Shown: positions 50,688 to 56,931 of the stretch, one piece after another | How the letters are laid out: the number at the start of each line of letters is the position of its first letter | Position numbering within the stretch: the stretch's first letter is position 1 | Source: Paramecium tetraurelia | Lineage: Eukaryota; Ciliophora; Oligohymenophorea; Peniculida; Parameciidae | Direction: 5' to 3' | NCBI RefSeq assembly: GCF_000165425.1 | Contig: NW_001798992.1 | Span: 162,902 to 226,901, forward strand | Length of the DNA: 64,000 nucleotides | Notes under the pieces: generated by a model | Told to the model about the DNA's origin: nothing | The model's input: the letters and a program-made list of their open reading frames with translations, nothing else | Database searches by the model: none | Made by a program: the position numbers and the translations under genes

Positions 50688-52670
50688 TCATTATGTGTTA
50701 AGAAGGGTTTAATAGTGTTCAATTTGTTCAGCCCAATACCTTTTGTTTTCTGAAATCTATTCCATAAACTCAGCTAACACTGGTAGAATCTATTGAAGAG
50801 TATTATAGTAAGGTAATACCTAGATCACATAAATAGAGATACCATGAAATCTATAAATCCGATCTAGCTCTTTGCAACATTGGTCGTTCTTCTATCACAC
50901 AACATAGTCACTGGAAGTCCCATATCCTTCTCCCTGTCCCCCTATTGCCAAAACTCTCCCAGCACTCTGAAAGTCCACTTCTCATAATTCTTCATTGGTT
51001 TGAAGGGGTTGCTGATATCTGCTGCATGTAGCAGAGTATCAAAGCAGATACCTTTATCTTTGCTTCCTGGATCAAAGTCATTCGAGGCCAATCTTGCCTT
51101 CAACTTATTGAAATCTAATAATGAACTCATTCTCAGACATACCTTTGCCATGCATTGCATTATCTGTACTCAAAATCATGCTTATAGACTTTTCTCTGAA
51201 ATACTTGAAATCCTATATTGAGAAATTCGAAAACAGTTCAGTTTCTCGTATACATTTGAATAGAGTAGCAGCATGATGTTGTTCAAGCGAGGATTTATCA
51301 TTGTAAGTCATTGCCAATTCATGTCTTGTGTTGTTCAAAAAGATGTTATTCAATCCTGGATGATCGACATCATGGGCAGCTGCAGACAGCAATAGTATTG
51401 AATAATCTAATTTGGTCAATTTCCCAATTTCTTTGAAATTGCATTTCTCAATAAAGAAATAGACTGTGTGGGTGACATCGAAAGCATGAATTACATTGTG
51501 GTAGAGATTCTCTTTGTGATAGTTCGATCCCAATTGATCCATACATTTCTTAAAAGAATCTGGAGATATCTTTAGAGTGCTAAACAAATGTTCCTTCTCA
51601 AAATAATAGCACATCAGATGAGTTAAGATGGCACTATCATATCTGTCAAATAAAGAGAAGTAATCATAATCCAAATTGAGGATGTTCTATGCGAAGTCTT
51701 GTCTTAATTATTCAGGCAACTTTGTATCGTTTGAGAAGATAATCTCTATTGAACTTGATTTCTTTGATTCCTAAGACGCCATCAACTATTAATTTTGAGG
51801 CTGATTCAACCAACCTAGTGCTTCGCTTTTCCTCCCCTCTATTATTGGCTCATAAACAGTATTATTGGAAATATGAGTGATTCCCCAATTTAACTACTTG
51901 ATTATGTCTGAATCTTCAAATTGATCTGCCAGATCACGCATTATTTCGATCACTTTTTCAACCGGTGATCTTACAGTGTATCTTGTGCCCGCATTATTGA
52001 TCTTTTTCACTTGATTATACTATTGTTTGGTTAGTTAAGAGTATTACCTTTCGAAATACTAAAAACAATCTCAAGAATCTGAAGATACCTCTCAACACTT
52101 TACTGATAGTTGTAAATGCGTCGCCCTGTAGATTCAGATCCAAAACTATTAAGACTATGGATGCAACGATTATCAATGCATCAAAAAAGGACCAACAATC
52201 TGAAAAATATGTCTAAGTTCACAATCAATATAATACAATAAAACCATTTTAAAAGCATCTGATGGATATTTCCAAAACAAATAGAATTAGTATGACCAGT
52301 TCTATTATCTTAGTCACAAATAATGTCTTATCTATGTCGGGATCCTCCTTAGCATCGTTGGCTATTTTTTCAACAAGACCTTACATGTGAATGAGAAATT
52401 GATGAAGACCAGTAGAGTGAATATCAAAACTAATGCAATTACTGCCTTATCTATCAAAGGGATTCCCTGATGTTGCTAATCAGTAATTCTTTCATAGGAT
52501 GTTCAAATTTACTCATCTGCAATAACGCGATCGTAACCTTCAATATTATATGAAGACCTTCGATCCCCAAAAATATTGGAGATCTCCTTTGAACCTCTCG
52601 GAACAACTTTAGCAGTAGCTTATCCCAGATTCCTATTAGTATCTTCATTTAAGTTCTATTGTTCAGTCAT
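50688..52670 (-). CDS. Voltage-sensor domain fused to 3',5'-cyclic-nucleotide phosphodiesterase
   Basis: A 610-residue protein with six introns (52489-52512, 52362-52384, 52213-52236, 52020-52047, 51115-51142, 50820-50842). Residues about 60-185 form four membrane helices: S1 DKAVIALVLIFTLLVFINF, S2 VTKIIELVILILFVLEISIR, S3 SFFDALIIVASIVLIVLDL, and S4 VLRGIFRFLRLFLVFRK with regularly spaced Arg. There is no pore. A linker leads to a class I PDE domain with the metal-binding motifs YHNVIHAFDVTH, SAAAHDVDHPGLNN and LEQHHAATLF, then LLHAADISNPF. All HD-domain metal ligands are present, so it should hydrolyse cAMP and/or cGMP. Control of hydrolysis by membrane potential is inference from the layout. 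Confidence 0.93.
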
Positions 52671-52840: not shown

Positions 52841-55792
52841 TCAAAAGTTTTATTTTTATTATTTTTTGGAAAAGTTCCCTTAGATTTCAAAATAACCTCT
52901 AAAATAATGCATAATAATAAAATATATACCTGATTAGACTTGTTTCAGGATATAGCTAAGTCACATTTTCTATTGGCAACTGTTCAGATCTAACTACTAT
53001 GGATAGATAATTCCCTGGTGTAAGGTGATCTATCTTACGAGATACACACTTATCTAAATTAACATAAAGATTATCATTACAATTCGAATCATCCAAAATC
53101 ATTTAGTCCAATTTGCTAATGTCTTTTTCTTGTTTGATTTGGAATTTCCCCAAATCTATTTAAAGCTCAGACAATTTGACTCCTGCTTAAAATATCTGGA
53201 GATACTCCTTCTCAGTGTATTTCATCTCCAAAAGATCGTTGACTAACTTACTGTAAAACTTCCTGATGTTAGAATATATGCATAACTTCCAACTATTCTA
53301 TTTTAATTGAATTATCTGCTAATTCTTGTACTTCTACTTCTTCTTATTACTGTAAGCATCCACCAACTCCTAGCCTATCCTTCGAAGCTACTCCACTGCA
53401 TCCTCATGTAATTCTCTGTTGTTCTCAATCTCCACATAATAAAATGTGTTGGAGAGGTATTTCCCAAATTTGATCAACTTGTTACACTCTAGCTCCTGAT
53501 ACTTTTCTCCTAAGAAGTTTAATTGCTATTATGACAACACAATTATTATCTTATTTCTGATGCACACCTCCGATAGAGCCATAGATTCATCCAACTCCTT
53601 CAGACGACTATTGATTAACTTAGTGACCCTCTGCTGTATGTTTGTATCAAAATAGAGATAATTATACAATTCCATAGCCAAATAACGACCCCTATCACTG
53701 ACTTGCAATTCTTCATATTGCTATTTAGTAATTAATCCAGTCTATTAGAATGTGGTTTGTTTTGATTCTATTTGATAAGAATCCTTTAATTGATTTCTAA
53801 AATCCTCAGAATTTCTATTCAATTGCATCACAACATAAATTGTCCCTGCAAAAAATTAATCACAAATAGTAGATACTTATTGATAATTCAGTTTAGTATT
53901 GATTGTTACTGAATCATCACATACAATCAACTCTAATTAATTGACTTAAATATCTTAGCTCTACAAATAACTTCTTAAACTTGATTCCCAATCTTTTAAA
54001 TGCAATACCGTCGACTCCTTCACTCTGTAAACAATTGACTTCCTATCAATCCCCAACTATAACACTTGCCGAATAAATTGCTGAGAAATATGATGAATTG
54101 AAATCAATTAGATGAACTTCTCCTCTTCGATGACTTTCTTATGTTTGTGTTTATTTCTATTCTGTTATGATGAGATTTCGTGACAAAACTCCTGCAACTC
54201 ATTTATGTCACTGATTTCACTACTATCAAGACTATCGTAATTCCTTCTGAAAGATTCCATTGAATTGATTGTTCCATCGTTTTGATATCCTGATTAATTT
54301 AGTTATTACTAATCATTCATTTAAATTCTGCAAGGCTACTCAATATTTTCCTTGGATGCCCTCGACTTTTGATCACTCGAAAAACTGCTTTGATGTTGGC
54401 CCTACAAGGCATTTTTCAAAGCTTCTATTGATTTTAAGTCTAAATGAATACTTGAATTAAGTTTGTTTTCACAGTATTTAGAGGTTAAATCTGGAAGCGC
54501 TGATTTGCCTCTCCATTCCTAAGGAAATAATTACGATGAGGCAAAGTCCTTCTCTTTTTGTTATTAAGGCATGATGCCAGACTTACCGTATTGGGAATAT
54601 AGCAAGGTAGATTTGCAACTTTGAAACGATTATGATAATTAAGACATCTCCAATTGCTTGTTTTTCATTACTTGATTAAATTTTAACCTTAAGTCAATAA
54701 GATCTTTAATTATTTTGAAAGCCTAAGTGTTGTCTCTTTACTTAGAAAAAAACAAACATTATTTAAATCCTAGACTAAACACATAGTTTTGAATTTTAGT
54801 GTCAAACCTTCGGTCAATCTCCTTCACTAGGGATAGTATAGAATTGAGTTTATACAATCGAACTGTCCGATTGCACTTTTTCTTCAATATTCCTTCCAAA
54901 TCATCAATGAACTTGTCAATATTTTCACATAAATCAAATAATTCCATGTTAAACAATTCCAACTATTGTTAATTCAAAAAATCGCTTATGTTTTGTTAAG
55001 CCTATTGGCAATAGAGTAGATTGGATGAATATATCTTGAATTGAATTTTCCATCCATCATCAACCAATTTAATTAGGATTTTATTTTGTAATTAGAATTA
55101 CTCGACATCATTCTCTGAATAGAAATGAATAAAATCAATATAAGTCATGGCAATTTACTGGAGGGGATCCGCATCATTAAAATACTCTCGATTAATCGTT
55201 GGTCTCAATTCATGTTTGGGAGTAAAATTAATCGATTGATTATACTCAGTGATCCAGCTCTGAAATAATAGCGTAATTTTTTATTCCTTCCTCTTAGGGA
55301 TCCAGGCGACCACAAAGGACTCATACTGTTCCAGATCGAAATCCTTCAGGTATCCAGTTTACTCCTGCAATTGTCGCTATTCCTTAATCAACTTGTCTTT
55401 CACAAACAAGCAGGTTCCCCTGTATTTGGTATAGAGTTCTTTGTAGTTTTTAGAGTAGAATATAGATGTGTAGGGTTTGTAGGAGACGTGAGTTCGGCGA
55501 TCCTTCATCACGTAGATCATTTTGAATTCCTAGTAAGCTATGTATTCTATTTTGAATTGAGCAACACGCAATTATTCCTCATCGTTGCCTAAGCCATATC
55601 GATATTTGGAATACCTGCCAAATATATTTCAGTGGGTTCAAAAATGAGATGGGTGTTGGTGTTTTGAAGTATTCCTGTGAGGATGTTGACGAAGTTCATC
55701 CAGATGAATGTTTCTGTGGACAAGTTGAGCTATTTCTTGTGCAAGATCATGCGATTTGCGTAGGCTCCATTATGGTTATTTTTATGAAACAT
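52841..55792 (-). CDS. Large unknown helical protein (964 aa)
   Basis: Two introns, 55589-55614 (26 nt) and 52899-52929 (31 nt). The whole frame between them is open. The N-terminal third looks globular (RTHVSYKPYTSIFYSKNYKE; FDLEQYESFVVAWIPKRKEQ). The middle is polar with Ser/Gln-rich stretches, and the last third is helical (TKLINSRLKELDESMALSEV; YAELECNKLIKFGKYLS-like segments). No domain recognised. If the last intron were not spliced, the protein would end at 52887 instead; splicing gives the tail GYFEIQGNFSKKQQKQ. It lies between two same-strand genes with 105-170 bp spacers. Confidence 0.72.
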
Positions 55793-55897
55793 TAATGTAG
55801 TAAGTGTGTGTTGAGGTTGATTTGCACAAAAATGTGAACAAATAATTTGGGATGGTTTTATTTAGGTGTTTAATATAATAATTATTATAATATTCAA

Positions 55898-56931
55898 TCA
55901 AATTGAGGACGATCTTCTATTTTACCATCTACAACTAAGGTAATTGAATAAGTTACTCATATCTTCACATTTCATTTCCATTTGCATATCAGCGACGACT
56001 GGCATTTGGAATGGGAAACCAACACGAAATTGTGGGGGTATTTGCAATGCTCCATATTGAATCATCTGATTTAGAGGATGATATTGAAAGTAGTATGGCT
56101 GAGGGAAGTATGTCTGAGGAGGAGGAGGAGGTGGAGGGGGTTATTGTTGTCGCACTGGCATCAATACTTCTCTCATTTGTGGCTGGGTTTTTATTCGCTT
56201 TGCTGCCTGAGGTTCAAGGGGTTTCCTCCCTCTCTTTTTTGGTTCTCCTTGTTCCACTTGGACTTTGGGCTTGGGACCTCTCTTTTTAGGCATCACTGCC
56301 TTTGGAGTGTAGGTACTGGAGTCGTTTTAAATTTTATTTTCGTCTCTTGATTTATAATCTTCGTCAATTATTTTTAGAATCACATGAACAAAGTCATGTC
56401 TGTTAAAGCAATTAATGTGATCTGAAGATTTTATGTGCTATGTTTTAGAGATAACAATATTACTTCCAAGTAATCAGCATAAGGTTTACGACACACTCCA
56501 CAATACCTATGCTTGCGACCTGGTTTCGGAATTTACTAAACTTTACTATATATATTACCAACTTAGTCTTCTTCATAGTGTATTCTTGTATCTTTCTTTG
56601 ATGATCCTCCTTGTATTTTTGCATGCTCCTCAAGTAGTCATTCTAATTGAAATAACATACAACCAATTCTTACTCTGTCTACTTCTAAAATGAAACCAGG
56701 CAAGCATTATTGTTCATCTTAATTAAAGACTGGAACGATATTTTGGAAACAGGCCAGCTAAACATTATATTATATATCTGTTACAGCATCGTTGTACAAG
56801 GGACAGAAATCAATGTTAGTTGATTACTTTAACCAACACTTTAAACTTTTCGGATGGAGATTGAACTAATGCTCTGGGCATCTTGGTTGACACTTGCGTT
56901 TCCCCTATCCTGAAATTTTCTCTCCAGCCAT
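55898..56931 (-). CDS. DBF4-type zinc finger protein with AT-hook-like motifs
   Basis: A 318-residue protein with introns at 56866-56893, 56536-56558 and 56438-56463. The zinc finger (about 150-185) reads HRYCGVCRKPYADYLE, then HIKSSDHINCF: Cys-x2-Cys ... His-x5-His, the DBF4-type finger; an intron splits it. Downstream are two AT-hook-like basic motifs, KKRGPKPK and KKRGRKPLE, and a Pro/Gln/Tyr-rich tail with seven consecutive prolines. Dbf4 activates Cdc7 kinase for replication origin firing. This short protein could be a Dbf4-like subunit or a nuclear DNA-binding protein carrying only the finger. The first intron (GTGTC start) is less typical but restores the frame. Confidence 0.75.

Follow-up and report, generated by a model that had tools for sequence, protein, structure and literature searches.

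A voltage-sensor-like domain joined to a class I phosphodiesterase in a predicted gene of Paramecium tetraurelia

To our knowledge, no established enzyme family other than the voltage-sensing phosphatases is driven by a pore-less voltage sensor. Fusions of adenylyl cyclase to a K+ channel were reportedly described in ciliates and apicomplexans by Weber in 2004, and Ikuta is said to have described, in 2020, a rhodopsin-phosphodiesterase in which a membrane light sensor is fused to a phosphodiesterase (PDE).

A passage of PMC4588038 presents voltage, cyclic nucleotides and ciliary beat as linked in ciliates, and adds that cAMP rises on hyperpolarisation in Paramecium and that in P. tetraurelia each of the 16 genes for adenylyl cyclase codes for a cyclase joined to a K+ channel domain. 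For Plasmodium, a passage of PMC5746546 mentions PDEs with up to six transmembrane helices. We analysed a 64,000-nucleotide stretch of P. tetraurelia DNA, hereafter the window, which contains a predicted gene joining a voltage-sensor-like domain (VSD) to a class I PDE. This fusion, the VSD-PDE, is well supported by the gene models and domain matches described below.

Gene structure and paralogues

The VSD-PDE gene lies on the minus strand, with its ATG at 52670 and its TGA at 50690-50688; these coordinates are exact. Seven exons, separated by six GT..AG introns (lengths in Table 1), yield a spliced coding sequence of 1833 nucleotides, open throughout under translation table 6 with TGA as stop, and a protein of 610 amino acids. 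An earlier, sequence-only reading had proposed six introns within one spliced frame and a fusion of a voltage-sensing domain with a class I PDE. Both proposals are confirmed by the table-6 model, in which Ion_trans is followed by PDEase_I within the same 610 codons.

Table 1. Features of the VSD-PDE gene (window positions; residues of the 610-aa protein)
Feature	Position	Strand	Basis
Exons 1-4	52670-52513, 52488-52385, 52361-52237, 52212-52048	-	gene model
Exons 5-7	52019-51143, 51114-50843, 50819-50688	-	gene model
Intron 1, 24 nt	52489..52512	-	gene model
Intron 2, 23 nt	52362..52384	-	gene model
Intron 3, 24 nt, S2-S3 loop, phase 0; only position common to all six paralogues	52213..52236	-	
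Intron 4, 28 nt, S4/linker border; absent there in the three B gene models	52020..52047	-	
Intron 5, 28 nt, within PDE domain, phase 1; position common to A copies only	51115..51142	-	
Intron 6, 23 nt	50820..50842	-	gene model
S1 helix, residues 68-86	52389..52445	-	hydropathy peak
S2 helix, residues 101-122, with F115-x2-E118 of the charge-transfer centre	52258..52323	-	hydropathy and alignment
S3 helix, residues 135-155, with D140	52135..52197	-	hydropathy and alignment
S4 helix, residues 167-184: K167, R170, R174, R177, R183, K184	52048..52101	-	alignment
Linker from S4 to PDE, residues 185-356, within exon 5 without interruption; this exon also carries part of the PDE domain	51504..52019	-	
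Class I PDE catalytic domain, PDEase_I 357-589, split by introns 5 and 6	50754..51503	-	Pfam

The genome searched comprises 69 Mb in 231 contigs, with the window gene on contig C39. This size, translation table 6 and the tiny introns accord with a ciliate; table 6, TGA as sole stop and introns of 20-30 nt suggest Paramecium in particular. The genome contains 69 PDEase_I exon matches, which we grouped by hand into 42 places, and among these are five paralogues with the same architecture (609-613 aa). The window gene and its close paralogues on C73 and C198 form group A (A1 to A3); the more distant paralogues on C58, C157 and C138 form group B (B1 to B3, B3 being the C138 copy). Ion_trans and PDEase_I both score above their curated Pfam cut-offs in all five full-length members scanned. 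The B3 gene model is unsure in the linker, and this copy was kept outside the full-length Pfam scan and the dN/dS pairs; its first 240 amino acids entered the alignment and its PDE domain the tree.

All six intron positions match among the three A copies, as they do between B1 and B2; the B3 model agrees with the latter two at four of six positions. Only the intron in the S2-S3 loop is common to all six members (residue 129 in A, 123 in B). The PDE half has no intron common to A and B, the phase 1 introns lying 11 alignment columns apart.

Could the model wrongly merge a small voltage-sensor protein gene with an adjoining PDE gene? The position of intron 4, exactly between S4 and the linker in the A copies, would fit such an artefact, but this intron (28 nucleotides in the window gene, 30 in A2, 26 in A3) is too short for an intergenic region. 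Furthermore, residues 124-240 of B1 and B2 lie in one uninterrupted exon that holds S3 and S4 together with the beginning of the linker; in the A copies, residues 185 to 476/477 lie in one exon that joins the linker to about half of the PDE domain. Thus the fusion does not depend on any single predicted intron. With the architecture preserved across six loci, we give almost no credence to a merger. A single transcript for the VSD-PDE is supported by the predicted gene structure and by the six copies.

Several features surround the gene. Upstream, in the window (55894-56931, minus strand), there is a predicted gene beginning MAGEK...CQP(K/R)CPEHQFNL, which is found directly upstream of the VSD-PDE at C198 and C73 as well (loci L009 and L010, minus strand). 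This shared neighbour fits duplicated chromosome segments. At C73 this neighbour matches a DBF zinc finger weakly, short of the cut-off. Between the two genes, the window also holds a table-6 open frame of 913 amino acids (52887-55628, minus strand) with no Pfam match at E <= 0.01, and no frame as large occurs between them at C198 or C73. Scans of the 64,000-nucleotide window for tRNAs and Rfam families returned nothing. Elsewhere in this genome, 105 cyclase-domain exon matches accompany the 42 class I PDE places; a search of the genome for a K+-channel/cyclase fusion yielded no more than a cyclase fragment at a single locus.

Catalytic and sensor domains

Residues 357-589 match the complete PDEase_I profile (PF00233, positions 1-238 of 238, E 5.4e-80) and contain the motifs YHNVIHAFDV (from residue 357), HDVDHPG (400), HAADISNP (506) and SQIGFID (559). 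The HNxxH, HD and D metal-ligand motifs and the purine-binding Gln, assignments that we carry over from PDE4, are present in all six members, B3 having YHS for YHN. The full-length match and these motifs bear out a class I PDE with all HD metal ligands, as the sequence-only reading had it. Among the best 60 of 146 matches, the catalytic half is closest to PDE4 (E 6e-55), followed by PDE1 and PDE9, with PDE8 weaker. The likelier substrate is probably cAMP, because PDE4 is nearest by sequence and because SNP, which we take to be a mark of cAMP-specific PDEs, follows the metal Asp. Pfam detected neither a phosphatase family nor a cyclase domain in the VSD-PDE protein at E <= 1.

In the N-terminal part, residues 69-194 match Ion_trans at profile positions 8-121 of 241 (E 5.2e-11). 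Hydropathy peaks beginning at residues 68, 101 and 135 correspond to S1, S2 and S3. In the three A copies S4 does not stand out as a peak of its own; the three B copies show a fourth peak from residue 156. PKD_channel is a weaker Pfam match, just below cut-off with the full window protein and just above it with the N-terminal part. Using phmmer, the N-terminus matched the sensors of Cav and Nav channels, the 'Ion channel' entry 3wkv (E 2e-4), which we take to be an Hv1 chimera, and the voltage-sensor phosphatase 4g7v (E 9.1e-4), and weakly TPTE2 (9c49, E 0.13). A profile built from the six sensors retrieved, from PDB sequences, Cav3.2 (9ayg, E 1.9e-15), 3wkv (E 8.4e-9), 4g7v (E 1.4e-6) and the voltage-gated hydrogen channel 5oqk (E 9.7e-4).

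S4 has the sequence KVLRGIFRFLRLFLVFRK. Basic residues occupy the every-third-residue register at R174, R177 and R183, which in our reading of the profile alignment pair with R1574, R1577 and K1583 of Cav3.1 (6kzp). The in-register position between R177 and R183, L180, is neutral, so that the basic run is broken; R170 falls outside the register, and the B copies have Gln there. All six members have the aromatic residue and Glu in S2 (F115, E118) and the Asp in S3 (D140) that make up a charge-transfer centre, and all six keep the S4 basics K167, R174, R177, R183 and K184, including the three at every third residue. The Ion_trans match, the peaks and the aligned S4 agree with the four S1-S4-like helices of the sequence-only reading. 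Its description of S4 as Arg-rich is fair, the S4 charge being real but modest.

That reading had also seen no pore, and here too the evidence agrees: in the window protein the Ion_trans match ends at profile position 121 of 241, and no transmembrane helix is predicted in residues 190-356, where the 19-residue hydropathy mean does not exceed 0.49 in the A copies. In the B copies this mean is at most 1.38 over the same residues, at 311-322, adjoining the PDE domain. Within the linker, the segment (S/T)P-x-EK at residues 202-206 is common to A and B, with P203, E205 and K206 invariant.

The match to 5oqk raises the question of whether the sensor itself conducts protons as Hv1 does, or offers a gating-pore pathway, in which case the PDE would sense local pH or current in addition to S4 movement. 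The selectivity determinant of Hv1 is an aspartate in S1, but S1 of the VSD-PDE (68-86) has no aspartate, D66 lying just ahead of it, and we regard such a pathway as very improbable. Structure prediction was applied to S2-S4 in unspliced form, with intron 3 included and TGA read as Gly (pLDDT 69; Foldseek returned nothing at E <= 0.001), and to exon 5 alone, which holds the linker and roughly half of the PDE domain (pLDDT 40.6). As these predicted structures are uninformative, the voltage-sensor claim stands on sequence homology and conserved residues.

Selection, origin and possible voltage control

Synonymous differences (pS) are near saturation in three of the four pairs compared (0.71-0.91 for A1/A2, A1/A3 and B1/B2) and range from 0.41 to 0.66 in the youngest pair, A2/A3. 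Across the four pairs, B3 being left out, pN is about equally low in both domains, at 0.035-0.080 for the sensor and 0.041-0.077 for the PDE, and is higher than either in the linker and the N-terminus. Judged by these values, constraint on the sensor matches that on the enzyme in all four pairs, and the paralogues are under purifying selection. The S4 protein sequence is identical among the three A copies and among the three B copies, while the codons differ.

We computed a maximum-likelihood tree of 38 PDE domains, 6 from VSD-PDEs and 32 others; locus L034, with no predicted PDE protein, is missing from it. The six VSD-PDEs form one side of a branch with support 98/98, a grouping that could be overstated since long branches meet at the A/B join. 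Because the PDE-half introns of A and B differ, the case for a common origin of the entire fusion draws on the tree together with the sensor intron and the architecture. The sensor profile was also searched against six-frame segments of 38 fetched PDE loci, C162, C168 and C47 being left out. Only the five paralogue loci matched; none of the 33 others did so at E <= 1e-3 (next best 0.056), with flanks that may fall short of the 5' end in long genes. Searches of prokaryotic genomes with the C73 protein and of viral contigs with the six-sensor alignment found no relatives, a result that is not informative on ciliates.

In the tree, the PDEs nearest to the VSD-PDEs are six with different N-termini (L026, L029, L035, L036, L040, L042); in four of these gene models, transmembrane helices are predicted at the N-terminus or upstream. 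Ion_trans was found in none of the three N-terminal stretches scanned (L029, L035, L030). L030 and L031 encode PDE proteins of about 1200 amino acids with three to four predicted N-terminal helices.

Is the sensor-like domain a voltage sensor in function? Voltage-sensor folds can lose voltage sensing, as in TRP channels and polycystins, and S1-S4 could likewise be a mere membrane anchor or docking domain that holds the PDE at the plasma membrane or that of the cilium, perhaps next to a channel, with the enzyme constitutive or otherwise regulated. The few in-register S4 charges with a neutral L180, as well as the weaker PKD_channel match, would suit an anchor. So would the other PDE genes of this genome, whose predicted N-terminal helices, free of Ion_trans in the three stretches scanned, imply that its PDEs can be anchored otherwise. 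However, plain anchoring would not require F115, E118, D140 and five S4 basics to persist in all six members while synonymous sites approach saturation in three of four pairs. We consider an anchor unlikely, though a serious alternative. The reading we favour, and think rather probable, is a membrane-bound, PDE4-like class I PDE, probably preferring cAMP, with a genuine pore-less S1-S4 voltage sensor at its N-terminus.

Control of cAMP/cGMP by membrane potential through the VSD-PDE is plausible, since the gating-charge and charge-transfer residues are conserved. A change in membrane potential would move S4; this movement would be relayed to the PDE by the linker, including its (S/T)P-x-EK segment, and would alter PDE activity, much as S4 moves the phosphatase in voltage-sensing phosphatases. 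Our guess as to sign is that depolarisation activates the PDE, which would then clear the cAMP made by the hyperpolarisation-linked adenylyl cyclase/K+-channel fusions of Paramecium. For a voltage-gated PDE in this full sense, with membrane potential directly setting cAMP breakdown via a sensor like that of the phosphatases, we find the balance even. If true, it would give ciliates a direct molecular path by which membrane potential acts on cAMP and, with the K+-channel/adenylyl cyclase fusions, a push-pull arrangement in which cAMP synthesis and destruction are each wired to voltage, each within one polypeptide. In addition, the VSD-PDE might be turned into a tool with which voltage controls cAMP.

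Comparison with known systems

We found no voltage-sensing PDE in the literature searched; subscription journals, InterPro and the ParameciumDB tables lie outside its scope and may already annotate this domain pair. The word 'phosphodiesterase' is absent from the main text of a review of voltage-controlled enzymes (PMC3440755) and of a voltage-sensor review (PMC13095418). A passage in a Euplotes genome paper describes Ion_trans and PDEase_I genes as 'always adjacent' (PMC8670190). Perhaps these neighbours are the same fusion taken for two genes; if so, going by that passage, the VSD-PDE may be old in ciliates.

The multi-transmembrane PDEs of Plasmodium, as far as they are described in the source cited above, and those of this genome are likewise membrane-bound class I PDEs in alveolates; unlike the VSD-PDE, those of this genome had no Ion_trans in the three N-terminal stretches scanned. 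The adenylyl cyclase-K+ channel fusions of ciliates and apicomplexans, as outlined in passages of PMC4588038 and PMC5746546, also combine a voltage-channel module with a cyclic-nucleotide enzyme in alveolates. However, they have six transmembrane segments and a K+ channel domain and make cAMP, whereas the VSD-PDE lacks a pore and degrades the messenger; with neither an S5-P-S6 pore nor a cyclase domain, it falls outside that family. Rhodopsin-phosphodiesterase likewise couples a membrane sensor to a PDE, but its module responds to light and not to voltage.

The voltage-sensing phosphatases (Ci-VSP, TPTE2) likewise consist of a pore-less S1-S4 followed by a cytoplasmic enzyme, and one of them, 4g7v, is among the profile matches. 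Their enzyme is a PTEN-like lipid phosphatase, whereas that of the VSD-PDE is a class I PDE acting on a soluble messenger. If its control by voltage is real, the VSD-PDE would add a second type of enzyme under voltage control, one that acts on a diffusible messenger. Its architecture follows a known plan, a sensor joined to an enzyme, in which the enzyme is new.
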